Assembly (NCBI RefSeq): GCF_000003815.2 | Contig: NC_049981.1 | Span: 20,076,789 to 20,140,788 of the forward strand | Source: Branchiostoma floridae | Lineage: Eukaryota; Chordata; Leptocardii; Amphioxiformes; Branchiostomatidae | Reading direction: 5' to 3' | Length of the DNA stretch: 64,000 nt | Shown here: positions 6,018-55,700 of the stretch, piece after piece | Layout: each line of letters starts with the position of its first letter | Numbering within the stretch: the first letter of the stretch is position 1 | Notes under the pieces: model-generated | What the model was told of the DNA's origin: nothing | The model's database searches: none | The model's input: only the letters and a program-made list of their open reading frames with translations | Translations under genes and position numbers: made by a program

Positions 6018-7902
6018 AAAATATTGATATTGTATTCATTTATCTTATGACGTTATGTGTAGCACCACAGGAAGAATAGCTTACAGAAATGTCAAGCTAA
6101 TTGTGGATGCAAAGAAAGTCAAAGGCTGTGGTAGCATCTAGTACCACCCTCCTATGTTTATCAAGACATTTTGGATGTATTTACCACCAGTGCTGTAAAT
6201 GTTTATTTGTGCCCACCATAAATCAAACCCAATCCTCTATGTGTTTCCTGAACATCGACCCCACCTTACTCCCTAGTAGGTGTCTCAAGAGTCGGTCGGT
6301 CAGAAAGCCTGACCACTCCCTACATCTGCTTGGAGATTACGTCCCACCAAATGACTTTCGATGACGCCCGTTGTTGGGATGAGTTTGATTACAACATAGG
6401 TTATCAAACGGAAAATGTTCTCCCGAAAAACTTAAGCTATCCAGTTCCATAACACTCGATGTTATGTAATGTTCAAGCTTATGAATATGTCACCTCTCAT
6501 TGCATCATACCTGTTTCTGGTCATGTAACGTTAAGTTTAAATAAAAAAATGTATGTAGAAAATCGTTCTTAAATCTTTTTCGGCTCAACGTGTATCTTCT
6601 CGTTTTTTAAAGATGAGCCAGTGTATTTCCTTTTGTCACTGTCCGTAGGGTTTAGTGTTCTCTATAGCAGTGAACTTGAAATATTAGTTCAGGTAGAAGA
6701 AATAAAGCTTACTTTCCCGGGTAGTTGGATCACACTCACGACGTTGTTTGTACAAGATACATACCAATGTTATGCTAATATCAAAGACTTTCATGAGGCA
6801 TGTTGAGTATAAATAGAGATCGATGGGAAAGTATGTATCGATATCATTGTCATTGGATGAGAACGTTGGAGGGGGGGGGGGTAACAACTGTGAAACATTC
6901 CCCGGGAATGTAGCACCCCATCACTGCCATTCCCGACATGTCGGCCATATCGTGTCTGGTGTTGTGTCTCGCCCCTCCATGTTGTTGTTTGTCGAGTCAC
7001 TCCTGGTCACGTGGGCTGCGTATGATGTTATGTAGCGTTGACCTCATAAGAGGAGCGCAAAACAAAAACACAAACACAAATATGGCGAGCGCTTGCTACG
7101 CGATTAGGTTGGCAATCGTCCGAATGTGTGGCGTCGAAGAACCTGCTACTAATACTCTTCTCATAAAATAGGCACTCCCAGGCCGCTATTCTGAACAGTA
7201 CATTTTGCATATTGCGCTTTAATCTACTATTTACTAAACAGTCTAATTAGTATTTGATCTTTGCAAATTACATGTATATGGTTTTCAGCATTTAACAAAT
7301 ACCCTCAAATGTCATCATATAAACCCCAACGGTACACCGGCCATTGGACGCCGGCTTTAAACCGGCTGCGCTGTTACAGTTTAAACAAGTATTACGTCAG
7401 ATAGATACCTCTTCTATTTTTGTCGGTCCATCTCTGAGCCCTGTGATATAAAAAGAACCGCGACAAGTCTACATAGTAGTTGAGTCCTACTTTGGGTATT
7501 CTCAGTTCTCTCTGTAGATCACCGGACTTAACATCGGCACTGCTGAGATCACCAAGAGGCTGATAACATGTACATGTTAAGCAGAAATTCGGCAAAGCGG
7601 ACATGAGTATAATTACTGATAGTGGCGATTAGCGAGTGTCGTGCAGTCGTCAGCTGGGGCTGGTACACAGCCAGAACATGTTGACAAGTACTTGTTTCTA
7701 TGGAAGGAGATCAGATGTCCATTCACTCATCAGCGGTTGTGTTTAACTGTTTTGAATGCAGTAGAAACTTTGTGTTCGTTGTATTTCTTCTGTCATTTTT
7801 ATCTGTTATTCTCAAATTGCTTTTCTTCGTGATGTTTTCCAGTAAAGCAAAGGAGAAAATCCGGTTAGAGTCCAACCCACAAGCAGGAGTTGCCTCTTCA
7901 CC

Positions 7903-10209
7903 ATGGCCGGTCGTCCGACCAGGCAGGCTTACATGAGCTCCAGTGATGAGGAGCCCGACATGCCCAAGTCGTCGTTGGTCAAAACGTACGACGGCAGTCA
8001 TCTTGGGCTGGGGCGGCCCGACATCTGGCTCTGCACGGGCCGGCAGCGGTTCCGAACCCACAAGGACCTGCTGGCCACCGAGAGCGACTACTTCCGTGCC
8101 ATGTTCGAGTCAGGGATGCGAGAGTGCAAGCAAGAGGAGGTGGATCTGGAAGGGTTTTCGGGGAGAGTGTTCGAGCTTCTCTTGGACTTTCTCTACACGG
8201 GGAAGCTGTCGGTGAAAAAGATCATGATAGAGGCTTTGCTGGCCCACGCCAGCTTCCTCCAGATGCGCTCGGTGATGGAGCACATCAAGTACCGTCTGGA
8301 CAATGAGAACTGTATGGAGGTCCTGACGTACTCGGAAGTGTACGGAGTGAGCGACCTGGAGGATAGCGCCTATCGTTTCCTGAAGGACCACTTTAAGAAC
8401 GGAGAAGACATCTTGGGAAAGTTGAAGTACGAGCAGCAGGAGAGGTTTAAGGGACAGCTCAGGAGATACCTTGTCGGTGTGGGAACCCACGCGGTCGACG
8501 TTACGTCGTTGTACGATGACCAATACCGACTCATTCAGTACTTCGACGAGGACAAAGACACCTGGGAGAAGTTGACGGCTCTCCCGTCCGACTGCAGCAC
8601 GATATCCAGCGGCATCGCTGTACTCAACAACAAACTGTACATCACAGGCGGACAGGCGGACTTCCATAAGGTGATCAGCCAGTTTCCAGCCATGCAGGAC
8701 AAGGCGTTCTGCTACGACCCCGCCGCGGACTCGTGGTCTGAGATCACGCCCATGCACCAGCAGAGGAAGTCGTTCTCGCTGGTGGCGCTGGACGGGAAGC
8801 TGTACGCGATCGGCGGCAGGTTCGGGGACTACGCCCTGCAAACCGTGGAGGTGTACAACCCGCGCACAGACACATGGGACTTCGTCAGCCCGCTGCCCTA
8901 CGCCTCGTCCGACCACGCCGCCACCACATGCGCCGGACACATCTACGTCTGCGTGTGGCACCCGCCTAACACTACGGACATATACAGGTGCGTCTCATAC
9001 ACTCAGTCTCCACTGTGTGACTTCTAGTCCTGCCTACAACGCTTGCACTTATAATACAGCTAGATGTGCAAAGGTCGGCAGTGGCAGGTCGGTCGTTCAG
9101 TGTAATAAAGCCAGCAGCTGGCGCACCCACGGTGTCGGACCAGGTAATAGATACATTGAAAAAACGCATTCAAGTAAAGAGACCTGCAAAACACATCATA
9201 AACAGGTTTGCAATAAGTTGAATAACATTCCTATTTTATCTGCATAAAGTGACTACCTTGTCGTCCTCTTGTGTATATAGTCAACGGTATGATGGTTGTC
9301 TCACACTATTCCATCTTCACCTGCGGCGGTCAGGTACAGTCCGAGAACTGACAGGTGGGAAATGAAGGCCACCCTGAGGAGGACGCACAGCTACGGGCAC
9401 TGCATGGTGTCGTACAGGTTAGTCTATACTATACTTTTCTTTTCTTTTCTTTTCTATTCTTTTCTTTTCTATTCTTTTCTTTTCTTTTCTATTCTATTCT
9501 ATTCTATTCTGTTCTATTCTATTCTATTCTATTCCATTACATTACATTCTATTCTAGTTAAGGTTGAATATGGACAGAAGCTACCCTCTCAGTCCAAACT
9601 GTTAACTTTGTGTGACCTCCACAACATCAGTGATTCATTCTTTCGAAATCATTTTCTGTGAGTTCGGAATGACCGGTACCCGTCGCCATGTTGGTGGGTT
9701 GCAGATTCAAGATGGCGACTGGTCATTCTGCCTATCCACTCATCAACATGGCAACTGCCCATACCTACAATTGCCGTTGATGACGCGGCGAAACGTTAAT
9801 TTCAGTAAAACTGAAGCAAACTGCAAATTTTGAATCTAAAATGAACGTATACTAATGTCAATAATTGAACGACCTGACATTTTTTTGTGTCCATAGGGAT
9901 GTGCTCTACGTCATCAGAAACGGGCCTGACGCAGACTTCCTGCGCTGCGAGATCGACTGCTTCAACGTCACGACCAACCAGTGGAGCTCTCTGAAGGGCC
10001 ACTACATCAACAGGAGAGGCTGTCTCTTCAAGAGCGCCATCATAGGCAACACGGTCTACACAGTCAACAAACTCATGACCTTACCGTACACTATAGATAA
10101 CGAGCAATGGGTCTGTCAACCTTCAAAGGCTGGGTTTCCTCGGAGCGGGACAACCAACTGCTTTACGCTGTGTCTACCAAAGAAACCTCGTAAGGAGGTA
10201 CCGGAGTGA
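7903..10209 (+). CDS. BTB-kelch protein (KLHL42/KLHL15-like), three coding exons
   Basis: Coding exons: 7903-8987, 9334-9417 and 9897-10209, joined in phase 2 both times (donors gtgcgt and gttagt; acceptors cggtcag and ccatag). The product is 493 aa. An acceptor at 7842 (ttttccag) precedes the ATG (caccATGG), so a 5'UTR exon exists upstream. BTB domain about 36-135, with the typical core HKDLLATESDYF at 53-64; a short BACK-like stretch about 137-190; kelch repeats from about 205 with glycine pairs at YITGG (246-250) and YAIGG (301-305). The exon 1/2 junction restores a kelch strand pair (DIYR-YSPRTDRW). Length and layout resemble KLHL42 (about 505 aa). The family usually recruits substrates to cullin-3 ubiquitin ligases; that role here is inference. 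The later kelch blades have lost the GG signature and the BACK region is shorter than in classical KLHL proteins. A candidate AATAAA lies near 11095. Confidence 0.9.
9434..9545. repeat. Pentanucleotide microsatellite (TTTTC/TATTC)n
   Basis: About 22 copies of ttttc grading into tattc, in the second coding intron of the kelch gene, just after the donor at 9418. It makes long repetitive frames that are not genes. Confidence 0.95.
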
Positions 10210-13027
10210 CCACGGGGGTGCTCGGGCCAGGGCAGGCCCTGAGCCCGTCAAGAGGTCGGGTTGTCTTGCCTCAGTGTGACAAGGATCACGAATGGCATGT
10301 TTTGACTTGCACCAAAGGTTAATAGTATTCTACATCCTTGGCGACATTGAATAGCATATTTTAAAAGGTATCTCACCCAACAAATCATGTACACCAGCTA
10401 GAAATCTCTAAAGTATTTAATCAAATCAAACATGAAGTCAAATCTATATCAAATCATTGACCAAATTCATGTTCGATATAGTTTTATCACTGAATATGTA
10501 TGTGGAAATAGTTTTGCCCAGGATACAAAGTCTTACTTTTGACGTCGCAAAATGATCTAAGATTATTAGAAGAGACCTGGCAAAGTGTATGTAGGTAAAG
10601 ACAGACAAACATACATCTTTGGTGCGGCGTTAGCGAAACCGATGGAAGGCACATGTATGTGGTGCTGAGAAAGAGACTACTGACCACATTAGAGATACGC
10701 ACAGTACAGTACCGCTAGACCGTTGCGGAGAGAGCACAATCCCAACGAGTGAGGGGCTGCTACTCAGGCTATGAAACATCGCTTCAGGCAAGTAACGGTT
10801 AACGTTACTTCTTAACGTGACGTCAACAGAGCTTAGAGATGGGAACTACTTTGGCCACCACGTGAGAAAGTTTGAGAAAGAAGGTAAAAATAGCTAAAAC
10901 GGTACGAGAAGTTGGTCTCAGACAGAGGAATCTGGTAAACGGTAAAACACTGCTGTACAGTTCAAAACCAAAAGACTGAGAAACGAGGCATTTGCACAGA
11001 GGCTTGATGGAACTGGCCTTACCTGGCTTGGTAATTGCAAACAAGTTCACAAGTGCAATGGGAAGCGACAACGAAGCGTCATCTGACGACTTTCAGAATA
11101 AATGCAAAACGTCTTAATCACGTTTAGGGATACAACATGAGGCCTTAACTGACAATTAACTTTCTTGGCGAAGGTAATGAACTGATGGTCATGTCAGATT
11201 AACTTCTGCACGCCATCAACAGTATGTACAGAGATCTAGAATTTTACGATGAAAACTTTGTTGAATATCAGATATGATACCTTCGTGATCACCGACATCA
11301 TTGCGAATCCCGTGTGTACATATATATGAAATACTTAAAAGTTGTGATCTTTTATGAAAGTTTTATGAAAAGTATATATAAACGGATTGAAACTATATTG
11401 CTGTGCAATTTATCCCCCCGTTATTGTATTGCTTCCCCTCTATACAGATAACATGTGATGATGTTAAGTCACATGTTTATACTGATTAGTGTATTAGTTG
11501 TTGTTGTCGGTGCATGTTGAAAAGCATGTGAAATGTTTATTTCAGGGGCAAAAGCTATCGTACTGTGTATTTCCCAATCACACACAAACTTTGGCGATAT
11601 TTTACTTGCACATTGTTGTAAAATGGAGGTCGTCAGTGGCCATGGCGTACAGATACGTAATATCATGTTAGTTCATTTGTCATATTCTGTATAGTCATGC
11701 GTGTGCACGACCTTGAGAAATCCTAGTGGAATTTGAATATAAGAAAGAAAATACTGTTCACTAATAATATTGTGTCGTGCCTTCTTTCTCCGTCCTATTT
11801 TTCTTCTTTCTCCTTCATATGTCTCTTCTCTAGTTTTCACAAATATTGCATCATAAAAGGTGGCAATGTGCCACGGTTTTGTGGTTTGAGTTGTTAACTC
11901 TAAAGCTAAAGGTTCTGAGCTCGAATCCCAATCAGGTTCCAATGTTGTACTCTTGGGAATGACACGTAACACCTATCTCCAAACAGGTCAAAATGAGTAC
12001 CTAGCTTCGATTAGGGACGATCCGCTTTGATTTGGAGTGTTTTGGAATATGATGGTCTAGTCTGCATGGGGGTTCGGTGGAAAATCACATCTGTCGGATG
12101 GATTGCAAAATCTACCGGAGGCCCCGAGCACTTTAAAAATAAAGAACCTACCACAGCACACTTAGCGAAAATACTAAAGGTCCTTCCCGATGTGAGTGGA
12201 TGAAATAGATATATCTGAATGTGCAGCTTGTACTCTGTACAGACCTGGTGTATCATTGAACGCCATAGGGTGGTTTAATTGACATACAATACAAACACAC
12301 AAACATTGCTGGGAAGCAACGTCTCAATTTGGTTTATTGCACATTGATATGAAACGATTACCAGACTCCAAACCTGTAAATACACAACAATGAACTAAAT
12401 CAACATAGATAAGATACCACAGTATCGAGGTGGGATAATTTTGTGGTGATTGTGTGCTGTCAGCGACATAACATAAAATGTACAGTATATTTAGCTTGGT
12501 TCTGGATACTAAATCACATGATTGCCCTTTCATCACTTGGTACTTCCTGATGATGATATTTACAAATCCATTGGAAGCAAAATAATTTTATTTGTTTTAT
12601 AAAGAAAATAAATCATTTGTCTCTAGATTACAAAATGTATCTTGCGTAATGGAAATTTTATGGCATTCAGACACACGAACTACGCATATTTGAGTTCAAA
12701 GGTTAAGACCCCATAAAACAGTTCTTTTTTTTATATTATTCTTCCTTGCCGGACTGCCCAACCCAATATGCTGTTTTGTATTTGTATTTGTGATTGTCAG
12801 CTTTGATATTTCATTTCCTAGTGTTAATATTAGCAGCTTGCTGGAGTTAATCACCACTATGTCTTGTACTTTTTCATGTTAATGAATAAAAATCCCCCAA
12901 GGTAACGAATACTCCATATAAGCAGCTGTTTAAGTATTTCTGTGGAGTTGGGCGCTACACATACGTACAATACTGTCCCTATAGCTAAATATGATCTGTC
13001 CATAGGTGTTCTCTGACATCAGGTGGT
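10210..13027. other. Convergent intergenic region
   Basis: This lies between the 3' ends of the kelch gene (plus) and the mucin gene (minus). There is a candidate plus-strand AATAAA near 11095. Candidate minus-strand signals (tttatt on the plus strand) lie near 12330 and 12588. A SINE-like element is at about 11860-12005. No coding exon was recognised. Confidence 0.5.
11860..12005 (+). mobile_element. tRNA-derived SINE-like element
   Basis: The segment contains a degenerate tRNA-like head with a box B-like run (ggttctgagctcgaatccc). A tail follows with actcttgggaatgacacgtaacacc. The same head-plus-'cttgggaaa...' arrangement recurs at 36713, 38330 (minus) and 57400 (minus), which supports one SINE superfamily. 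Confidence 0.6.
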
Positions 13028-13066
13028 TCAGTACGGGTCGTCTCGACCACCCTTCAACATGGAATA
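13028..13066 (-). CDS. Mucin exon 4 (C-terminus with YSML)
   Basis: The acceptor ttctcatcag (minus strand) follows a pyrimidine-rich tract. The exon reads YSMLKGGRDDPY and stops at 13028-13030. It continues exon 3 in phase 0, so the NPVYDR and YSML motifs abut exactly at the junction. Confidence 0.8.
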   Translation of the reverse strand, partial: YSMLKGGRDDPY

Positions 13067-16000
13067 CTGATGAGAAAAGGGGCAACGAAAGAGACAGTAG
13101 TTAATATTTGCATTATAAACAGCAAAAGGCAAAGTCGTACGGTAAAGCGTTATTTAAGACTTCCAGATCAATCCGGATTGGCCTAAGATCATGACAGGCT
13201 ACTTACATTTTTAAAATCTAGTGCAATCTACTAACAAATTAGAAGTTATACAACATGACAGAAGATAAGATTAAACATTGTATGTCAATGACACAGCTAC
13301 ATATCCTGTTATGCTGATACTCGTATTTAGTAAAACAGACAAGACCACAAGGGAGATAACAAACGGTGCCGTTATTTTATGAGGCACGGCAGGACTGACT
13401 TACCCGGTCATAGACAGGGTTGTTGAAGGACGTCCAGCCGTAATCGTCCGCTGTGATGTACCCTCTGTGCGACCGTCCCCTGCAAAACACACGGAACACA
13501 GGCATTACCACATTTTCATACACAATATCATGTTATTCACACTAAAAACATATAGGAGTAACGTTTACTATATGTCATGTTCTGCTTGTTCAGTTACAAT
13601 AGTCTATTTGTGGTCACTTAGATGTTCACATTTGCCCACGTTCGCATCACTGAGTCTGGGGTGTCCATCCTTGATATCAAGTCAGCGTGGTCTAAGTCAC
13701 AAAGCTCACATTTAAGCCCCGGTCACAAGAATCGTACGATTGACTGCGATGGAGGTTTTATGCGCGGCATAAGCGCAGTACGTCGGAAGTCGGGGAAGAA
13801 TCGGAAGCAATGGTTTAAATATATGAAGCCGTGGTCACAAGAATCGTAGTGCATCGTACGATGAGGTCATAAGAGCGTACCTGCGTCAATCGCAGGTAAA
13901 TCATAGTAAATCGGGGAGCCTCCTATGACGAAAATAGAGCTGAAATGGATTTTGAACATAAAAATTTCGCTATCGTCGTAAGATTTTATTTGCCCCCAAA
14001 GCAGACTTCATTACGGCAATTTTTGTCTACTGATGAGGTTTTAGATTTATGAATTTTTAGCATGTTGTGATGGTTTCAGTTTTCCTTGATATTGTCGATA
14101 TTGACGAAAAGGGAAAATACATCAGTCGCAACTGCCACAGGATTCCCAATGATATCACAATGGAATGAACTCTCGCGAGATCTCCACTCGCGTGAGTTTA
14201 TGACATGTGATATAACTCCCCCTCTATTCATAAGTGAATCATGAGCCGCACGAACAGGACGTTGTCTAGCAGAGCTCCTGTAGCGCGGTACCAGCCATGT
14301 GCAAGCCGGTGACATCTTTTACTTCTGGGAACGTATCTTGCCGGCAGCAAAGGACTGAGTAGTTTCCTTTGGCGTTAGTGTTTGCATCGTGTGTCTACAC
14401 CTAGAAGGTACGCAGTATTGCCTTGCCGCCTTATGGCGTGTTCTGGAATTTTTGTTTGGCGGTCTGTTTCCCGCGCTTTGGCGGGACAGTGTTCTCAGTG
14501 CAGAGACATTTTGCTGTCTGAATTTCGTTTTATTATTCTGTGAATTTGTTTGCTCACCTTTCCTAAGGCGTGCAGCTTGTGTTTTAGAGCATTTTCGAGT
14601 TTTCAAATGTTCCTTCTGATACTCGGGTCATTTATGAGTGGAATTTGCATCTGTATGTGGAGCGCACGTGTTCGGGTGCGCAGGTGAGATTGATTCAACT
14701 TAGCGTGGTTAACTTGGCTTCGGATGCATTTTGATTTTCTTGTTTGTTTGTTTTTTCGCATGAGTTAGGTATTCAGACAAGGCTGTATCACCACCAGGAC
14801 TGCCGTAATCCTTGTTTTCTTGCGCTTGGAGCCTAATGGAGCAGAACAACACTGAACTGATCACCGAGGGCCTGGAGGAGCACCTGACATTCCTCCCCTG
14901 ACGACAGTAGTGGTTAAACTTATTACTGACACCGCTGTGGGTGAGTTAAGCCATTTTTTGGAAACTTTGGGCAGTCGTCAAAGTGGTGGTCAGTGTTTTT
15001 CTGTGTGTGCCGAAGCGCCATGTTTCGGGTAGAGTTGCGTGATTGGGCTGCTCTCGTTTTAGCAGTGTTGCTTGTCTGTTTTACCGTACAATTTTGTCAT
15101 GGTTTTCTGTGCTAGGCCAGCATTTCTGCAATCTGTGGAGCAGTCAACAGCCCGGAAAGTGGTTGGACCAGGCTCAAAGACTTCAATACTCGGGCAGTAG
15201 TCAACAATTTGCAGCGGTGATTCCAAGTTGACTGTGATATCCTTTCTGAAAGTGTTTGTTTTTGCACTTCAGGTTGTCGGACAGCCTGTACGCTAGTAAG
15301 AGATCTTTTAACCCTCGTGAACTCGAGATGTTTCTGTTTTCTCAGTAATTTTTGCCGCGATGACGTAACATGTGATGTGCCCTTCTTCCAGTTTACCAGC
15401 TCCTGTCCTGCTGATCGGCGGGGCGCAGTTTGGGGCGGGTCGCAGGTTTGTGCTAAACCCGGCGTTCTCTCCACCACAGCTCCTGTCGGGCTGATCGGCG
15501 GGGCGCAGTTCGGCACTAACCCGGCGTTCTCTCCTCCCCAGCTCCTGTCAGGCTGACTGGCGGGGAGCAGTTCGGCACTAACCCGGCGTTCTCTCCTCCC
15601 CAGCTCCTGTTAGGCGGACTGGCGGGGCGCAGTTCGGCACTAACCCGGCGTTCTTTCCTCCCCAGCTCCTGTCAGGCTGATCAGCGAGACGTAGTTTCGG
15701 AGTGGGTCGCAGTTTTGCACTAACCCGGCGTTCTCTCCTCCCCAGATCCTCTCAGGCTGATCAGCGGGGCGCAGTGGTCTGATTTCTTAGTACCGAGGAC
15801 GTAACTTTTGTGGGGAAACTTTAGGTTTTGACTCTGTATGACTGAGGATCGTCGATCGATTTAATGTTTTAATTGGTTAGAATTCGCTGTCGGGCAACGG
15901 CACCGTCGGATGACGTAATAAAGTAATTGTTGTATATTGTATTCGCTGTCGGACAGCAGCACCGTCGGACGGTGTGGTACAGTAATTTGTGTTTATTGTA

Positions 16001-19000
16001 TTTGCTGTCGGACAGCGGCACCGTCGAACGGTTTGGTACAGCAATTGTTGTATATTGTATTGGCTGTCGGACAGCGGCACTGTCGGACGGTGTGGTACAG
16101 TAATTTGTGTATATTGTATTTGCTGTTGGACAGCGGCACCGTCGGACGGTTTGGTGAGATTGTTGGACAATCGTGTAGAGAATTCGTTGTTGGACAGCGG
16201 GGTGCGTCAGACGGTATAGTGGATTTTCGCTGTAAGACAACGGGCGCCGGTGGACGGTAATCGTAACTTTGTTTGATTTGAGTCGGTGTTTCATTTGATA
16301 TGACGACAGGTTGTTGGACAACCTCAGATTTTGTTTGGTTTGTTGCATGGTTGGTGAACAAATCCATGGTAGGTAACAAGACCGTACGGTAGTACAGTGA
16401 AGACCTACCTTGTTGGACAGGTCAGAGGTAAAGGTCAAAGGAATGGAGGACACAATGGGAACAATGGAACTTCGTTTGTCACAATTAGATTGTGACCTTG
16501 GACGACATGCAATTTTCGATAAGGTCCGCAGCGTCTGCACGGTAATGTTGGATGGTGATTTTACCGTTGACTGAACCGGTGTTTGCGTTTCTTGTTATGC
16601 AAGTTTGGAATAAAGACAAAGATCATGACGAGTTTCTCGTGTCACATTCCTTCCTACCATTGGATTTTCGGTGTTCCTGTTTATTGGCTACCTTTAGCTG
16701 GCCTAGTTCTCACTCGTGGACCGTGTTCAGCTCCCTTAAGCTGTTGCCACCCATACTGGCTTCGGCCTGGTGGTCCGGGAAGCGAGTGGGGCCTGTCCAG
16801 ACTGAAATATATAGAACTGTGCGTAAAGGTCGACAGTTACAGGTTAGATACTGAGCAAGCATTGTGGTGATAGCTTTCTCTGCAGCTGGAATATTGTTCT
16901 TGTATACGCAGAGAAATCAATGTTTGATTTCCAACACGACGCAGGATGAGTTGAACTACTGTAAACCTGGGAGAGGTTGGTCTCAGGTAATCTCTAAGGG
17001 CTCTCTATCTAATCGGACTGGTCGTCGACCATTCCACTGAGTTCGGATTGGACAGGTCCCACTCGAGCCGGACCTTAGGCGCCCAATGAACTTAGCTGAG
17101 AACCAGGGATCAATCTGCATTCCTGAGGAACACCTAAAGACTGATGACTGTGACTGTGATAGTCTTACACCCACCCTGTTGATAACAACAAGCATGCGCA
17201 GCAGACCATAGGGGATGCTGCTGTGTTGTCAAGGTGGCTTAATGCATACGTAGAGGGTTTTGTACGGAAAGGCACAGAGGTGAGGGAGTAAATATAAGGG
17301 ATTGGGGGAATGAAGACAATAAGGATTGGGAAAAGGGAATGGAGAAGAATAAGGATTGGGAGAGGATTAAATGAAGGGAAATCTAGGAACTTAAATTAGG
17401 GGAATAATGGCACTCGGGAGAAGCGGGTGCCGAGGTCTTCTCACCCCAGTCCTTAACTCTCCACTGAGGCAACGTGAGTGGGAATATATTATGATTCCCA
17501 ATGATATCACAATGGAATGAACTCTCGCGAGATCTCCACTCGCGTGAGTTTATGACATGTGATATAACTCCCCCTCTATTCATAAGTGAATCATGAGCCG
17601 GACGGGAGGGACACAGCCTAGCAAGAGTAGACTAGTCTAGCTACAGTCCACGGTCAGAGGCAATGTAGGTTTCTAGTGTAGCCGTTTTTCACCAGAGGGA
17701 TATCTCCGATCTGTGTGGATTATCCAAAGCTCCGAAGTTATATGCAACTACCACCCTACATGCGCTAGATGTTTGTGTACTGCAGGGACCAGAGTACACG
17801 AACAACCAAAGCAAGTAGTCAACTGGTTGTCCCAAAGCCTAAGCGAGAGACCTTCAGAAGATCAATAGCCTACCGTGGGCCCAATGTCTGGAACAGCCTA
17901 CCGCCAGACACAAAGAGTGTATGGCTCTTTCTCATGTGGTACAGCAGTCGGAATAAAACCGAGTGTCAGTCATTTGGTACTTTGTGTAATAATAGTTGCC
18001 ATATTATGTACAATTGTCGGGCAATAAAGTTCTGTTCAAGTGTAGGTGTCTTTTCTGTGTTATATCTGAACAACAGAGCGCAACACATGATATCAAGTTT
18101 CGGAGCAATTCTTCACCTTTTCTGCTGAAGAGGATATTAGTAGATGGGGGGAGCACGGGAAAGAAGTGCAGTCAAATTTTTAGCCCCCCCACCCACCCAA
18201 CCCCTAAGTATTTTACGGGTAAGCATGGAATCTCGGATTCCACGATGCCTCGGTCTTCTCAGCCAAGTCCTTAACTCTCCACTGAGGCAACGTGAGTGGG
18301 AATATATTATTCGCAACCAGAAAACAACGCGCCCCGCACAGGTGATGCAGACAATTGTTTNNNNNNNNNNNNNNNNNNNNNNNNNNNNNNNNNNNNNNNN
18401 NNNNNNNNNNNNNNNNNNNNNNNNNNNNNNNNNNNNNNNNNNNNNNNNNNNNNNNNNNNNCATAATCGTAAAAACCATGGGGACACTCAATCCATAAAGG
18501 CAGGCTCTATGAGTCGGAAATATATATGATATAATGCTTATGATATGATTTTTGTATGATGGCATCTTTTTGTTGATAGCATATCATGATACGATCTTCG
18601 AAAGAGCCTGACACGTATAGCCGGCAAGCAGGCCGAGATAACCATACCAGTACTCACACTTGATTTGTTTGAACTTTTGCTTGTAATACTCTTGTTGTCA
18701 TGGTCTTTTTTAATTCATTTTTACAGTTAAAGATATTATAGGAAGGTATTCAGCAGCTATGTCCACATTTTGTTGGTTAAAGAAGCACAAAAACGGTCAG
18801 ACGGCTATACAGAAGAGACACAAGTGAAAAATCGTACGACGCTGGAAAAATTTTGAACATCATCCGATGCTCTGCGATGGCTGATTTTGCTTACGATTTA
18901 GCTGCGATCCACTGTGATCATCGTGCGATAGGCGTAATATGCCATCGCAAGGACGTCGTACGATTCTTGTGACCGGGGCTTAAGTGTATTTGTCAGATAT

Positions 19001-21482
19001 GCAAGAAATACTTGAGGTGTACTCACATGGTTCTTTTGCGGATGTAGACAACTGAGATGATGAGTACACCAATTGCAATGGGGATGGTGACCGCTAGGGC
19101 CACAACTGTCCCGTGGTTCATCCCAGAAGTCTGTCCATTCTGGTCTTGTTGCTGAGTTGTTTCTTGCATCACTGGTGTACTCTCTGCAGCTGTGTTAGTG
19201 GGCCCTACATCAGGTTTTGTTGCTGTGCTGTCCTTGCTGGTGGTAGAGAAGACCGTTGTAGTGCTTCTTGTCGTTGGCGCTGGAGGCTCTGTACTTGGGG
19301 TTCCGGATTGCTCAGTAATAGTGGGTGTAGTTTTTCCCTGTGTAGTTTCAGAAGCAATAGTGCTACTTTTGCCCTGTGTTGTTTCAGAAGCAGCAGTGCT
19401 AGTCTTGTCCTGTGTAGTTTCAGAAGCGGCATGGGTTGTTTCGCCCACCGTAGTTTCAGAAGCGGGAGTGGTTGTTTCGGCCACCGTAGTTTCAGAAGTG
19501 GCATGGGTTGTTTCGCCCACCGTAATTTCAGAAGCGGGAGTGGTTATTTCGCCCACCGTAGTTTCAGAAGAGGGAGTGGTTATTTCGGCAACCGTGGTTG
19601 CAGAAGCGACGGTGGTAGTGATGTTCACCGTAGTTTCGGAAGCGGTAGTGCTGCCTTCCACAGATTCAGGCGTAGTTGGGGAGGTGGAACTGTTGGTTTC
19701 TGCCGTTGCCGTGGTAACAGGGGGCTGCCCTGTCGTGCTTTGTGAAGTGTCGTTTGTCTCTGCCGAAGTCGAGACTGGTGATGTTGTCGAAGAGCCTGTA
19801 GTCTGGACTGTGGGTTGAGGCGTGGCGGAGGGGGTTGTAGATTCAGGCGTGGTGTTAGCAAGAACAGGTGTGGTGACTGCGGCAGTTACTGTTGTCGGGG
19901 AAGCGTCGGTGACATTTGGAGTGATAGTTTTACTGGTTGTAGCGGCAGACGTAAAAGCGGTCGTTTCAACCACAGCGGTGCTTCCCTCTGGAGTCGTTGG
20001 TGTTTCCGTGGTGGTTTGTAGAGCTTCTGTCGTTAGTGAAGTTTCAGTAGTTTCGTTGGCTTCTGAAGTAGTCGCGCCGTTAATGGGTGTTGTGGCTATG
20101 GTTGTTAGGGATAGTGTGGTGTGTGAGAGAGTAGAGGGAACACTGGTAGTGTCATTGTCAGGAGTGTTGGATGGAGGAACGGTTGTAGACATCGGAGAAG
20201 ATTCATTAGTGTTAGGTGTAGTTTGGAGCTGTGTGCTGGAGGCTGCAGTACTGCCAGTGGGTGTGCTTGGTGCTGTGGCAGGGTGTGGAATGCCTGTATC
20301 TGAAGTATTGGTTGCTGTAACGACAGGTAGTGTGTTGGTGGTTGCTGTAGCGTCATGTGGTGTAGCAGTAGCTGTAACGGGTTGAGAAGTGGCTGTAGTG
20401 CGTGAAACTGTTGAAGTAGTAAGAGAAGTGCTAGACGCGCTTGTAGGTCCTGCACTGGCAGTAGTAGAGGTGTTATTGCCGTCTGCTGTTGTGTCGTTTC
20501 CATCTCCGGTAGGTGGTAACGACGTGGTATGGGCCTTTGAAGATGTTGCAGTTGTGGTGTATGGTGATATTGCACCCCCTGCCTCAGTAGAAGTCGCAAT
20601 GTCCGTGGTACTCGTGCCTGGAATAACATACCACACTGGTTATTTCTCTCTATGGTTATCTAAAGGTACCAACCCCAAATTATGTCAATATAATTTTTAA
20701 ATACGACAGGTGTAAACTGCAGTAGTGCTGAAAAGAAACGCCAGGAGAGTAAAATCCTAATTTTACCAATTACGGTACTCATATACCTTCCCCCTACCCC
20801 CACACGGCCTGGAGGTGAAGGGACCAGGTAGCTAGGTAGGTACATACCGAAAACCATCAGTACGTGACTTCCTTCTGCCATATCTAATCATATCGCCTAG
20901 CCACACGCGCACTGACTGACTTTTCAAAGCTTGAATGTAGGACAATGACCAGAGTACGAAGTGATATTACGCGTACGTACTACCAACCATGCTGTATGGT
21001 ATGGTATGTACGAATCATATACACTGACAACTGTCAACAATAAAGATTTCCATGTTCATATAAAACTCAGAACAGCGACCTGTGTAATGTTCAAGCTTCG
21101 GTTTCTAGGTAGATGACGTGCCCATCTGAACCTAATAACAAATGACCCGACATATATATGGCTCGCACTGAAATACAACATGTTTTTCCGTGCCCTAATT
21201 AATTCACTTCTGGATTTACGTGTTGAAACCGTATACAAGTTCGTCGTTTTCCTCTCCACACAGCCCGTGAGCCATAGATAACGTACCGTCCTCGAGAATA
21301 TCATTGACAAAGATCTATACTAACGTTAGTATTACAAAATATTATCCCAAGCACATGACCCACTGTAGATCGGCACCAAAATGGCGGAACTTGTTTTATA
21401 ACAGCTGTAAGAAAAGCTACACCGTACCTGTGATCGTCAGATGCGCTCCGAACACCACAATGACAATAAAAACAGCTTTCAT
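13028..21482 (-). CDS. Ser/Thr-rich transmembrane mucin, four coding exons
   Basis: Exons in order: 21482-21428, 20617-19027, 13479-13404 and 13066-13028, with phases 1, 2 and 0 all agreeing; product 586 aa. Residues 1-18 are a signal peptide (MKAVFIVIVVFGAHLTIT). Residues 19 to about 515 are an extracellular stretch dominated by Thr, Ser, Ala and Pro, expected to be heavily O-glycosylated, with a block of 12-residue repeats of the type SETTVGETTHAA. A hydrophobic span (about 522-544, TVVALAVTIPIAIGVLI) is followed by the stop-transfer RKR. The 42-residue tail has NPVY (569-572), YSML (575-578) and a DDPY terminus. NPxY and YxxPhi are known clathrin-adaptor motifs; an endocytic or signalling role is inference. 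No EGF, SEA or other folded domain is seen. No specific mucin orthologue is recognised. Confidence 0.88.
13404..13479 (-). CDS. Mucin exon 3 (cytoplasmic tail, NPVY)
   Basis: Bounded by acceptor gttttgcag and donor gtaagt. Its first G completes the Met codon begun by exon 2 (AT|G). The 25 following codons start GRSHRGY and end NNPVYDR. Both flanking splice sites and both phases fit. Confidence 0.85.
14141..14248. repeat. 108-bp direct repeat, copy 1 (LTR-like)
   Basis: The sequence from gattcccaatgatatcac to aatcatgagccg is repeated essentially exactly at 17493-17600, 3352 bp away in the same orientation. Sequence beyond the right boundary of both copies remains weakly similar. The layout resembles the ends of a non-autonomous LTR element, but no TG..CA ends, primer-binding site or pol ORF were identified. 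Confidence 0.75.
15397..15775. repeat. Tandem array, six units of 62 or about 79 bp
   Basis: Units begin cagctcctgtc(g/a)ggctgat and include gcactaacccggcgttctc followed by tcctcccc. Two size classes exist: about 62 bp, or about 79 bp with an extra block like ggggcgggtcgcag. It is GC-rich and lies inside the TTAA-flanked element. Each unit boundary reads pyrimidine tract plus cag, resembling a splice acceptor on the plus strand. Confidence 0.85.
15882..16258. repeat. 59-bp tandem array, about six units
   Basis: Unit starts at 15882, 15941 and 16000 give an exact 59-bp period. Each unit carries tgtcggacagcggcaccgtc and then ggacggt, which forms the near-palindrome accgtcggacggt. The last two units are more divergent and of different length. 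Open frames on both strands here are repeat-driven, not genes. Confidence 0.9.
17434..17492. repeat. 59-bp direct repeat, copy 1
   Basis: From ggtcttctca to gggaatatattat, this is repeated at 18252-18310 with three or four mismatches in the same orientation. Copy 1 abuts the second 108-bp repeat directly. This suggests that the two blocks belong to one longer terminal sequence, of which other copies are partial. Confidence 0.75.
17493..17600. repeat. 108-bp direct repeat, copy 2 (LTR-like)
   Basis: Same sequence as 14141-14248. The preceding kilobase includes a purine-rich stretch (about 17280-17400, ggattgggaaaagggaatgg) that could be a polypurine tract ahead of a 3' LTR. No coding region for a retroelement lies between the copies. 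Confidence 0.75.
17769..18045 (+). mobile_element. LINE remnant (C-terminal end of reverse transcriptase ORF)
   Basis: The plus frame at about 17769-17920 encodes ASSQLVVPKPKRETFRRSIA followed by YRGPNVWNSLPPDTK. This is the characteristic C-terminal signature of Jockey/CR1-group LINE reverse transcriptases. The following sequence (17975-18033, with AATAAA-like caataaag) is shared with 5961-6017. The element is 5'-truncated, as usual for LINE copies. Confidence 0.75.
18252..18310. repeat. 59-bp direct repeat, copy 2
   Basis: A second copy of 17434-17492. It ends about 50 bp before the assembly gap, so what followed it may be lost in the gap. Confidence 0.75.
18361..18460. other. Assembly gap (100 N)
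   Basis: Exactly 100 undetermined bases, the usual placeholder for a gap of unknown size. Its position inside repeat-rich sequence explains the break, and the true length of the surrounding element may differ. Confidence 1.
19027..20617 (-). CDS. Mucin exon 2 (ectodomain and membrane span)
   Basis: The acceptor gttattccag and donor gtgagt bound 1591 nt of uninterrupted frame rich in Thr, Ser, Ala and Pro. It ends with the hydrophobic span and RKRT. The antisense frames are also open over long stretches, which is an artefact of the biased codons. Confidence 0.9.
19318..19640 (-). repeat. 36-bp coding repeats in the mucin ectodomain
   Basis: About nine units of 36 bp encode 12-residue repeats such as SETTVGETTHAA and SETTQGKTTPTI. 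The plus-strand unit begins gtagtttcagaagcgg. Two alternating subtypes (HAA/TPA endings) suggest duplication of a 24-residue pair. Copy number is likely to vary between alleles. Confidence 0.85.
20618..21427 (-). other. Mucin intron 1
   Basis: An 810-bp intron between the signal-peptide exon and the ectodomain exon. No other feature was seen apart from a C-rich patch near 20790. Confidence 0.6.
21428..21482 (-). CDS. Mucin exon 1 (signal peptide)
   Basis: The ATG at 21482-21480 starts 18 codons of hydrophobic leader (MKAVFIVIVVFGAHLTIT), ending in phase 1 at the donor acag|gtacgg. It is the only upstream ATG exon with a matching phase for the ectodomain acceptor. Confidence 0.85.
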
Positions 21483-49700: not shown

Positions 49701-52700
49701 CCAAGAATGAGTAATGATCGTTAAATGGAAAACCTACTTAATGGGAACTTGTAGCGTACAACGACATTGTTCGTAGGAAATTGACCTATCCATGGGAGGC
49801 TGCATTCGCTACTTCGGTGTCCTCTGCGGTTCATTCATGTCAATGGTGGTGGTTATGTAGCAGGATATGGACACAACATACACACCAAAATGGCTATTTC
49901 GTGTTGTCACAAATAACAAAACAGGTGAAACCAATAGCTTTGCTTGGGATGAAGGTACCAATCTGTATTTTATTTCAGACACCCTTCTATGACATTGCAA
50001 CAATGCAAAACACCTTCTAACCAGTATGATGCTAAGATCTCATCATATCTATGTTTTTTTTTAAAATCAGGAAAACATGGAATATCTACCTTTCATTTTT
50101 CAACTTCTTGATGAATGTAATGTAACATGTAAGCTGGAAGGGAAGGGAATGAATGGTTTGTATATGTCGTTTCTTTTACAGTGAGTGTATATAAAAATGA
50201 TATTTTTTGACTTTCCAATATCTTTCCAACTGGTTTGAACAGTTAGTTCTCAAGAAAACCAGTCTTTTCTTAACAATCATTTACATGGCAGGAAGGAATT
50301 AGGAAACAATTTATTCATACAGGTTATCTAAATCCCTAATACCAATTTTTGACCTTTTGAAGTCAGCACTCTTCCGGCCAATATAGCTTTACAATATAGC
50401 GAACTGGGGTAACCACGATCAACAGACCAAAACAGATACCATGGTGGTATAGCAGGGGGTAATATAATATAATGTAATGAGTGATTGGACGCGAACAGTT
50501 TTTACAATATCCACTTACAGTAAGTTATACAAATTACCCCGGTGCTAACAAATATGGGGTGAGTCTTGGGTCAGCAAAGTTATGATGCTTTCTCTGTCAT
50601 TCTTAAGACAAAGACACAAGGATAAATGATCGACATAACTATTGAATACAAAAAGACCTGTAGGTTTTCTCTTAAGGACAAACTAAGTGATTATGATAAT
50701 CAAAAAATTGACAGCATAAATGCCATCTAATGAAAGTAAATAATAATGTATCGTATATGGATGTTTATCCCAATTTTAACAAAAATAGTTTCAAGTTTAA
50801 TACTTTGGTAGCAGTAGGAGACAAACTTCATAATGCTATGACAGCTTAATTTATTTTTATCTCCCCATCTAAATGTTTTGTACAGTACTGTTTAAGTCTG
50901 ACCTTTACATGAAAAAGTGAACTAGATGATTATAGAGAGTGGCTTGTTCACTGTAAATATTCACAAGACATGACAGGTGCCAAAAATATTAATGTACTTT
51001 ACATACAATTTAACATGTAACCAGGTCAGTCTCCAGGAGTAGGCAAGCTGTAGCTGTGTTGTTGGTGTCATTACCGTTTTGTGACTTGTTACGAACAAGA
51101 GATTGGAGACCTCATATCATATTCTAATTCATATTTATGCGAATGACTTTCACATCTGCATGATCTATGCTTGGTTTTGTAAACCTTAACTAACTTACTC
51201 AGGTCAAAATGTTGACAATCCAATCATGAAAAAAATTATGGCACTTTTGCATTAATTATGCACATCAGGAACTTCTATAGATTCTATAGATACTAAGTTA
51301 GCATAGGCTAGCATAAACACTAGATATTAGCAAAGATTCAGATACTCCATGATACCAAACTAACAACAAAATGTGTCTTTGTATGTTGGAAGTATAATGC
51401 ATAACAGTGACAACCACTCATCACACAGGTTCCTAAATAACTTTCCTGCATTTTAATGGCATTTTGTCTGTAACCATCATGCCAGGGTTGCTCAGTATAT
51501 ACGATGGTAACAAATTGGAAGGCACTTTGGTATTGAGTGTATCAATGGTTTATTCAAACATACATATACATACATACATGGATATACTAAAACAACGTTG
51601 CAGCCTTTCATACAATGCTGTAAAACTGGCTGAATTAAGTTAGTTTTAGTCTTAAAAGCATCTTAATATATACAATATAACATATTTAACAATAATTGCT
51701 GCACACAAAGGCTTACATGAGCAGTAATCAAGATTCCATGTAGTAGTCATGTGACTATAAACATGCTATAAATCAGTATTTAAGAGTGTGGACAAGTATG
51801 GAATAGCACTGTTTCTGTACCTATCATGTCTGGCAAAAGGTATGCTAAGCTCGAGCCCTCGTTTTAAGTCTCTGTTGTGAACTTCATTACGGGTAGCTGG
51901 CAACCAGCTTCGAAAAATGGGTGAATTAAACATGGATTTCGCGAACTTAAGACATAGAAATTCTCTTCTTGCTTTTAAAGTGTTCATATTTAGCCTACAT
52001 AGAGCTTCGGTATAACAAGTATATTCGCTGCCCAGAATGATTCTTAGCGCACGCTTTTGTATGCGTTCTAATGCATCCGATTGTTGACATGTTAAACCTG
52101 GATGCCATACTGGGGCCGCATATTCCATGATAGGTCGGACATATAATAGGTAAATCTCACAGAGATCTTCAGTGCAGACACCAAAGCGTTTTAGTTTTTT
52201 AAGCAAAAAAAGGCGACAGCTTCCTTTTTTTATAATGACGTTAGTATGTTTTCCCCATTTCAAGTCCGCAGACATCCAGATACCTAGTATACAGGCATCT
52301 TCAGTGTACTCCAAGGCTTTGCCATTCAGTAATAACACAGGGGGTAGAGGGGGATCCTTCATGAAGGAAATACACATTAATTTGCACTTATCATCGTTCA
52401 ATGTCATACGGTTTTCGGATGACCATGTATCTAGTTGGTTAATTGTTGTCTGCATTGAGCTCTCTTCACTGAATAATCTACTCTCTTTTAACGACAGATC
52501 ATCAACATACTTCCATCTATCCAGAAAAAATTGCATTGCATCATTCACATATACTAGAAACAGGATCGGCCCTAGTTTTGTCCCCTGTGGGACACCAGAG
52601 GCAATTTTTTCCCAACTGGAAATAACGCCTCGGTACCGGACACATTGTGTACGCTCAGTCAGAAAATCACAAAGCCATGGTAAAATACAAGTACGCACAC

Positions 52701-55700
52701 CACATGTTAACAATTTACGGATTAAGATAGTATGATCAATTCTATCAAACGCTTTGCTAAAATCAGTCAGCAAAACAGTGTGGATGCTTTTAGGAGTCTC
52801 AGCACCGCGAAGAATTGAATCAATCATACTAATCAAGTAGTGGACAGATGAGCGCCCTTTTCTACTGCCATATTGATTTGGATCCAGAATTTTGTCAATG
52901 TCTTGGAAAATCCATTTTGAAATGAACGATTCAAACGTTTTCATAAAAACAGAAGTAAGTGATATTGGTCTTAGATGCTCTACTGACGCCGGGACTTTCT
53001 TTGGAATTGGGGCAATAATGGCTTCTTTCCATTGTTTGGGAACACGTCCCTCTTCCAATGAGCAGTTGAAAATATGGGCAAGAATTTCACTAAATTCGAC
53101 AGCAAATGTTTTGACAATTTTCGGGGAAATGTTATCAGGGCCGCAACTTTTCCTGGCATCAAGGCGCTTCAAGATTTCATGAACCTCATATGAATGTATA
53201 TGCGGAGGTTTGGAAGGAGAAGGCAGGTAAGATGGCAATGACTCAAGATCAAGGCATGGAAGTTCGTTAACAATGTCAGAAAAGTGATGATTGATTACAT
53301 TAGCAATATCATTGTCAGTCAGAGGAGTGCTGCTGGGCACAGACACTGATACGCTCCGCTTGGAATTTAGTATGTTGCGTAGACACACGTGCCACCTGGC
53401 CGGATTCTCCTTCTTTAACACATGGATCTTACAAACATAATATCTTTTCCTTGCCTCAATACACAGTCGATTTACACTGTTTCTTAGCTTTCTATACAAT
53501 GCCATATTGCCAGAGTGAAAAGCTTGCTGTCTCTTCTTAATAAGTGATTTGATATGGGGAGTAATCCATTCCTTATCAGTATTGTGTTTAACGACAGATT
53601 TCATAGGGAAATGATGGTCTATTCTACTTTGGAGAGTTTTATAGAAAATATTAGCTTTAGTTTGGATGTCGTGGGCATCAAAAACTTCAATCCACGGGTG
53701 GGAGGAAATCCACCGTCCAAAAGAGCGGACCTCGGAGTCCTTAAAAGGGCGAATTTTTGACCTCGTTTTCGTATTGATAGCTTTGTAGTCACTGGGAAAC
53801 CATAACACAGTATTGTGGTCGCTCATTCCTAAGGGCTCCTCAATCCTAGGAATTTGGTAAAATGGCTTCAAATTGGTAATAATTAAATCAAGAATGGCTT
53901 CTCCCCTAGTAGGCTGTCTGACCAGCTGTTTTAGCTGGGCTCCATTAAGAATATTGCTAATATCACATCTATTAAAATCTCCTAAAACACAAATTCCTGC
54001 AAGTGGGTACCTAGTATTAATCTTATCAATGCTATCAATAATATGTCTACGTAACAATTCTTGGCTGGGTGACGCCGGAGGATTATAAACAGCACAAATG
54101 GCAATATTTGCAATGGAACGTGGTAGCCAAAAGGGCTTAGCCCATACCCACAGACATTCAAGTTCTGTAGGTATTTCTATGAAGTCTATGATCTCAGCAT
54201 GTATGGAATCCTTAACATATATAGCAACACCCCCACCACGGCTTTCCTTACGACATATAGAGAAAAGGTTAAAGCCATCAATATGTGTACATTCCGGAGG
54301 GTGTTCATGAGTAAACCAAGTTTCAGAAATTACGGCTATATCAATCCCATAACTATTCAAAGAATCAGACAAATCATCCATCTTATTCAACAATGATCGA
54401 GCATTACTAAGCAAAAAAGATGGAGCAGTACAGCAGAGATGGAGCATTACAGCAGGCCCCGAGTGTCTATACTTGATGATATCTATTTCTGTCATTGCAT
54501 TTTTAGTTTTAAAGTGATATTTGATTCATAAGTTAAAGATATTTCCAGAACTCCCTTTGCCTTTCTAATTCACAATCATCAGCATCACAGCCACTGCCAT
54601 GGTCAACAACCTGGAGCACTGATTGTTGTTGATTTGCATATTATTGGTGGGTTACCAGGCAGAACTCTACTGACGTCAATATCCAAGACAAATTAGCCAC
54701 ATGAATCATTTGAACAGTTTGCTTTCCACTTGAAGCTGTCACATCCAAAAATCCAATTTATTTCTACAGGACAAACATACATTTTACCATTACTTTCAGC
54801 TTTTTGGCCATAAGAATTGTACACATGTATTTCTTGGTCCTTTTGTTTAAAAACTGGAAAAGCAATTTGAAAACAGTGTCTGATTGAGAGGAATTACTAA
54901 ATCTATATCTTTTAGTTTTACAGGAATTCCAAAAGTTGGTGCCTAATGGTCGTTCTTCAATTTGGGATTAAAGCTAGAGGTCCTGTCCAGCCTGGATGCC
55001 AGACTGTTACCAGAGCCTATAGCCCAACTCCTCGGCTCAGGGGCCAACATGCCCAGAGAATGTTCTACAGCAGGCCCCGAGTTAGACCCTGATATTACTT
55101 AGTGAGATTGTCCCGGAGTCTGGGTGGTGCTCAAGTATATCAATGAACCCATCACACTTGTCGATAAGAATAGGGGTTTTCTCTGGTGTAATTTGAACTC
55201 CATCATACTACCAGCTTCAGTAGACTCTGGAAGGAGGTTGTTTTACCTTTTCCAGCAGGAAATACATGGAAGAGAGTGGCTTACCTAGGCTCCTCAGAAC
55301 TGATGTTAGTGAGAAATCTTTGGATCAGGAAAGACTTAGAATCATGTCCTTTGAAAATCTTCATGTTGAGAAAAATCACACCAACTGGCGCAAGTAGGAG
55401 AGGTAATCAACAGTCGGAGCAAAGTCATGAAAACTGCCGACTTTTCATCCAGAGGAAAGGAGAGTAGCCCCTTCTCTCTTAGGTCTCACTCCAAATGCGT
55501 TCTCTGACCGGATGTGTCCAGAGGTGGGAAATGTCTGTACCCTTGACAATTCTACCTTAACCTTTCGCTACAAATGAATGCATAATGAGCTACAACAATA
55601 CATCTCTGTCATCTGCTATGAACTGCCTGACAGTGTAAACAAAACTTGAGATTAATTGATTTGAACCATTAAATTTATCTGTTTATTTTCCGTGACTACC

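Follow-up and report, generated by a model that had tools for sequence, protein, structure and literature searches.

A PARM1-like membrane mucin gene, probably a PARM1 homologue, in the lancelet Branchiostoma floridae

Background

Little is understood of the mucin PARM1, which has been linked to heart stress, the growth of cells and early embryos. The human protein, PARM-1, comprises 310 residues, divided into an ectodomain (residues 20-260), a transmembrane (TM) segment (260-280) and a cytoplasmic tail (280-310), and the C-terminus of its homologues has been termed highly conserved (PMC3750824). PARM-1 was found in Golgi and endosomes, shuttling to the cell surface and back; loss of the tail places the protein at the plasma membrane, and the exchange of YGRL (residues 287-290) for AGRA, a result quoted in that study from previous work, also brings it to the surface (PMC3750824). 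Another paper placed PARM-1 in the endoplasmic reticulum of heart cells (PMC2841187). Paired tail signals have further been described for MUC1, with two endocytic tyrosines (Y20 with AP-1/AP-2, Y60 with Grb2; PMC4202122), for LRP1, with YxxL beside its second NPxY, and for CED-1, with NPxY and YxxL in one tail (PMC8192809, PMC1762421). The present study concerns a mucin gene on the minus strand of a 64,000-nucleotide stretch of the Branchiostoma floridae genome (contig NC_049981.1, positions 20,076,789 to 20,140,788; hereafter the window, in whose numbering positions are given).

Judged from its sequence, this gene appears to encode a PARM1-like type I membrane mucin and is a probable PARM1 homologue (probability about 0.64). 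An odd-looking mucin thus becomes a probable pre-vertebrate relative of PARM1.

Results and discussion

Gene model and predicted product

Four minus-strand exons, spliced in silico, yield an open frame of 586 codons; the exon junctions were inferred from splice consensus and reading frame only. Exons and protein features are as follows.

Exon 1, 21428..21482, minus strand: 55 nt; start codon and signal peptide; codes for residues 1-18 and supplies one base of codon 19, the first
Exon 2, 19027..20617, minus strand: 1591 nt; Ser/Thr/Pro-rich ectodomain and TM segment
Nine 12-residue repeats of the ASETTVGETTTP type, 19320..19643, minus strand: residues 344-451; 36-bp period
TM segment, 19044..19112, minus strand: residues ~521-543; hydropathy peak 2.79
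Exon 3, 13404..13479, minus strand: 76 nt; beginning of the tail, including the PARM-like segment DYGWTSFNNPVYDR
NPVY motif, within FNNPVY, 13410..13421, minus strand: residues 569-572, two residues ahead of the exon 3/4 junction
Exon 4, 13028..13066, minus strand: 39 nt including the stop codon; encodes YSMLKGGRDDPY, an extension past the PARM-1 end
YSML motif, 13055..13066, minus strand: residues 575-578, opening exon 4

Exon 1 was recognized by its open frame, GT donor and hydrophobic N-terminus, and exon 2 by its open frame, AG acceptor and GTGAGT donor. All three introns are of the GT..AG type, with donors CAG/GTACGG, CAT/GTGAGT and CGG/GTAAGT (slash marking the exon end) and CAG acceptors. 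Exon 3 runs from phase 2 to phase 0, the exon 3/4 junction being in phase 0. Taken together, this is a coherent gene model. The coordinates and tail motifs proposed in a first-pass annotation were reproduced exactly on re-splicing (586-codon frame, consensus splice sites).

Hydropathy and composition indicate, in this order, a signal peptide, an ectodomain of 501 residues, one TM segment and a tail of 42 residues, which supports a mucin-like type I membrane protein. The ectodomain contains 163 Thr, 69 Ser, 43 Pro, no Cys and 12 N-glycosylation sequons, Ser, Thr and Pro together accounting for 55 %. The earlier description of the ectodomain as almost pure Thr/Ser was overstated: Thr and Ser make up 232 of 501 residues (46 %), and only 108 of these 501 residues fall within the repeats. 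The 12-residue repeats themselves were recovered as nine units. No family scored above its cut-off in a Pfam scan of the ectodomain, and the protein is expected to be mostly disordered.

Tail motifs

The tail (GYITADDYGWTSFNNPVYDR) is divided by the exon 3/4 junction into RKRTMGRSHRGYITADDYGWTSFNNPVYDR and YSMLKGGRDDPY. NPVYDR at the end of exon 3 and YSML at the start of exon 4, as previously annotated, were both found in the spliced frame, and the sequence supports the view that two motifs of the clathrin-adaptor kind are each located on a small exon of their own. NPVY lies ~26 and YSML ~32 residues past the TM segment, in agreement with the spacing of FxNPxY- and YxxPhi-type clathrin cargo (in the tail, at least some 25 residues from the membrane). 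Four tyrosines (Y556, Y562, Y572 and Y575) fall within 20 residues; the two ahead of NPVY read YITA and YGWT, neither of which is a YxxPhi. When the tail was shuffled 200,000 times, NPxY occurred in 1.1 % of the resulting sequences, aromatic-x-NPxY in 0.17 %, and NPxY followed by YxxPhi within four residues in 0.08 %. Since YxxPhi alone occurred in 54 %, YSML by itself carries little weight; NPVY is the weight-bearing motif and YSML a common kind of match.

Relationship to PARM1

The tail was compared with 24,736 Pfam families, matches being listed up to E 10. For the TM segment plus exon-3 tail (57 residues), the best match was PARM (PF17061; E 0.022, 15.3 bits, profile positions 242-294 of 296), and the last 75 residues also retrieved PARM (E 0.046, 14.2 bits). 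The match was lost in all nine shuffled and the one reversed exon-3 tail placed behind the same TM segment, as well as in both hand-scrambled tails. A match to CLLAC was discarded, as it persisted with shuffled tails and hence reflects the TM segment. Kinship with amyloid precursor protein was likewise rejected; PDB matches appeared only at E 0.45 and above, over the TM segment and a few residues after it.

The human PARM-1 tail has NPLY near its end, the protein ending just past NPLYDDS. This tail scored 56.8 bits against the PARM profile (positions 273-296). When Ala was put in place of the nine residues that it has in common with the lancelet tail, 22.0 bits were left, i.e. the nine hold ~35 of the 57 bits, and with the lancelet block swapped in, the tail scored 33.5 bits. 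Local alignment of the two tails found nine identical residues across 13 columns and a single gap (lancelet side DYG-WTSFNNPVYD), corresponding to a common block DYG-(x)-W-x3-NNP-x-YD. The PARM tail block DYGSWxxYNNPxYD is thereby recognizable in the lancelet protein, as judged with this human tail and the shuffle controls. The alignment score was matched by 1 of 20,000 shuffles, or 13 of 20,000 with NPVY kept whole; at a softer gap cost, the respective numbers were 0 and 11 of 20,000. Since the alignment was made after the Pfam match, it does not count as independent evidence. Elsewhere in the 513-Mb genome, nothing matched the lancelet tail up to E 0.001.

As far as described, PARM-1 also shares with the lancelet protein the signal peptide, the Ser/Thr/Pro-rich ectodomain, the single TM segment and the short tail. 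The distance between TM segment and NPxY is similar, with the human motif at residue 304 (TM end 280) and the lancelet motif at 569 (TM end ~543).

Several observations weigh against kinship with PARM1. The score of 15.3 bits is far under the curated PARM cut-off of 35 bits. Neither the tail alone nor exon 3 alone matched PARM in Pfam, and the whole protein of 586 residues did not match it at E up to 10, yielding DUF4064 (E 0.12) and DUF7454 (E 0.39). Shuffled or cut controls reached E 0.11 to 0.13 with unrelated families, the range being 0.11 to 0.2 with the TM segment alone included; the E of 0.022 for PARM therefore improves on chance matches only a few-fold and is weak in itself. The softer-gap alignment puts Y556 (YITA) opposite R289 and not opposite Y287 of YGRL, so that a former lancelet YxxPhi at the place of YGRL is not supported by it. 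A genome search with the PARM family did not list the mucin locus, whose TM segment and tail lie on separate exons, and gave two TM-region matches elsewhere (18.4 and 16.6 bits; E 0.588 and 2.09). NUP54, a neighbour of human PARM1, is located on chromosome C7 and not on C3, the chromosome of the mucin. Finally, the Golgi-endosome location of PARM-1 has been credited to its TM segment, with caveolin-1 probably mediating uptake (PMC3750824); this view speaks against a simple clathrin reading. The mucin was not filed as a formal PARM member because of the sub-threshold score, the lack of a YGRL-type YxxPhi between TM segment and NPxY, and a C-terminus that extends past NPxYD by the 12 residues of exon 4 with YSML, where PARM proteins end after a few residues.

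The matches on C16 and C1 were rejected as PARM homologues, since they cover the TM region only and, by eye, lie next to receptor-like coding sequence and within a leucine-rich repeat protein, respectively. The C16 locus (C16:2884946-2888053) comprises a TM exon and a tail, receptor-like by eye, and was found by the PARM model via the TM region only.

Further neighbours of human PARM1 are USO1, RCHY1 and SDAD1. USO1 is located on lancelet C3 as is the mucin, ~14 Mb off. Genome searches for RCHY1 (PF14599) and SDAD1 (PF05285) gave no match, and neither did their controls. With one gene for, one against and two uninformative, synteny neither supports nor refutes PARM1 kinship. Two NUP54-like loci were observed on C7 (19.93 Mb and 21.19 Mb), representing a duplicate or an uncollapsed haplotype.

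Alternative interpretations

The likeness of the tails could have arisen by convergence in an unrelated, lancelet-specific membrane mucin, as FxNPxY and YxxPhi signals evolve easily in short tails. The sub-threshold Pfam score, the frequency of YxxPhi in shuffled tails (54 %) and the ectodomain devoid of a homology signal are in keeping with this, as are LRP1 and CED-1, which pair NPxY with YxxL on very different ectodomains. We nevertheless regard convergence as unlikely, given that the match extends past NPxY (if NPVY is left intact, no more than 13 of 20,000 shuffles give an equally good alignment) and that all ten shuffled or reversed tails lost the PARM match. It is improbable, too, that the exons encoding NPVYDR and YSML provide mainly phosphotyrosine sites for SH2/PTB docking and no endocytic signals, a function that would be compatible with PARM1 kinship. 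Four tyrosines in 20 tail residues would suit such docking, PARM-1 raises the phosphorylation of ERK1/2, AKT and STAT3, and the NPxY of MEGF10 binds GULP. The effect reported for the PARM-1 tail, however, is on surface location, and PARM-1 lacking its tail or its ectodomain seems to retain the growth effect.

A transcript stopping within intron 2 (ending RKRTM) or elsewhere, which would reduce exons 3 and 4 to chance open frames, is very improbable. The unspliced frame does stop a few residues past the TM segment, and intron 2 measures 5547 bp and contains a 100-N gap. Yet this length is due to one TTAA-flanked element, described below, and both 3' exons have in-phase consensus splice sites, exon 3 moreover encoding the PARM-like stretch.

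Splice variants and proposed function

Three splicing events were followed in silico. If exon 3 is skipped, exons 2 and 4 meet out of frame and the protein ends at ...RKRTIIPC, with both signals gone; as the exon is 76 nt long and frame-shifting, its skipping removes YSML along with NPVY. Retention of intron 2 leads to the end ...RKRTM with neither signal, and retention of intron 3 to ...NPVYDRVSQSCRAS, which keeps NPVY and loses YSML. By these events, YSML is droppable alone and NPVY is not. The suggestion that a single signal is gained or lost through alternative splicing may accordingly hold for YSML via intron 3 retention and is not supported for NPVY, whose separate switching by exon skipping is ruled out by the frame. 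As predicted from the sequence, the tail can be shortened from its end, leaving both signals, NPVY only, or none.

The Ser/Thr/Pro-rich ectodomain would be heavily O-glycosylated and serve as spacer or decoy rather than as lectin or enzyme. Going by the known readers of these motifs, FNNPVY may recruit PTB-type clathrin adaptors, which read FxNPxY, and YSML the mu subunit of AP-2 or AP-1; because the two sites are immediate neighbours, probably one adaptor would be bound at a time. The mucin would then be taken in quickly and cycle between Golgi, endosomes and surface, as reported for PARM-1 with the help of YGRL, and could be pictured as a sugar-coated rod that rapid uptake keeps for the most part in Golgi and endosomes. 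By analogy, it would most likely work like PARM-1.

On the evolutionary side we propose, tentatively and at somewhat less than even odds, that PARM1 predates vertebrates and that its lancelet homologue carries the same NPxY block, with the YxxPhi on its opposite side and on a separate last exon. YxxPhi-dependent uptake could then be turned off on its own, through retention of intron 3 or polyadenylation at an earlier site, with NPxY kept. If true, the NPxY block would be the old part of the PARM1 tail, suggesting that the tested YGRL signal is replaceable. In a literature search with most subscription journals outside its reach, no paper joining PARM1 with amphioxus or Branchiostoma was found.

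Other features of the locus

Two pattern matches to polyadenylation-type signals and one large intronic element were detected.

AATAAA polyadenylation-type signal, 12587..12592, minus strand: ~435 bases past the stop codon; pattern match only, as is a second AATAAA-type signal at 12333
5264-bp element in intron 2, 13716..18979, no strand assigned: 24-bp identical terminal inverted repeats (GCCCCGGTCACAAGAATCGTACGA), TTAA on both sides (13712-18983)

The element makes up most of intron 2, which would be 279 bp long without it and one TTAA; TTAA is the target of piggyBac-like DNA transposons. Within the element are the 100-N gap (18361-18460), two dispersed repeat pairs (14141-14271 / 17493-17623, 93 % alike; 17428-17492 / 18246-18310, 94 % alike) and two tandem arrays (15456-15680, 62-bp units; 15882-16155, 59-bp units). 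Because of these further repeats and the gap, it may represent a nest of insertions.

Besides the mucin, 8 of 25 open reading frames (ORFs) of the window were scanned. A BTB-Kelch (KLHL type) coding stretch (7846-9027, plus strand; 393 codons stop to stop) neighbours the mucin gene, and a 919-codon open frame (51766-54525, minus strand) contains endonuclease and reverse transcriptase domains of the kind found in non-long-terminal-repeat retrotransposons. Among the long ORFs of ten flanking 10-kb stretches, 9 of 23 were scanned and no family exceeded its cut-off.

Comparison with known systems

MUC1 resembles the lancelet protein, by description, as a membrane mucin with two tail tyrosine sites; it has a SEA domain, and its Y60 is a Grb2 site rather than an NPxY. 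LRP1 and CED-1 differ in their ectodomains, which consist of folded repeats, and LRP1 uses a single tyrosine for both motifs (NPxYxxL), which is not the case in the lancelet. PARM-1 is closer, pairing YxxPhi and NPxY in one 30-residue tail (YGRL and NPLY) under a mucin ectodomain. The first-pass view that no named mucin has this layout is therefore not supported. The ectodomain of the lancelet protein is larger (~501 versus ~240 residues), and its tail is ~4 residues shorter from the first tyrosine to NPxY. Two internalisation signals on one mucin are thus an already known pairing; their order is reversed in the lancelet, with YGRL preceding NPxY in PARM-1 and YxxPhi only following it, on the last exon, in the lancelet mucin.

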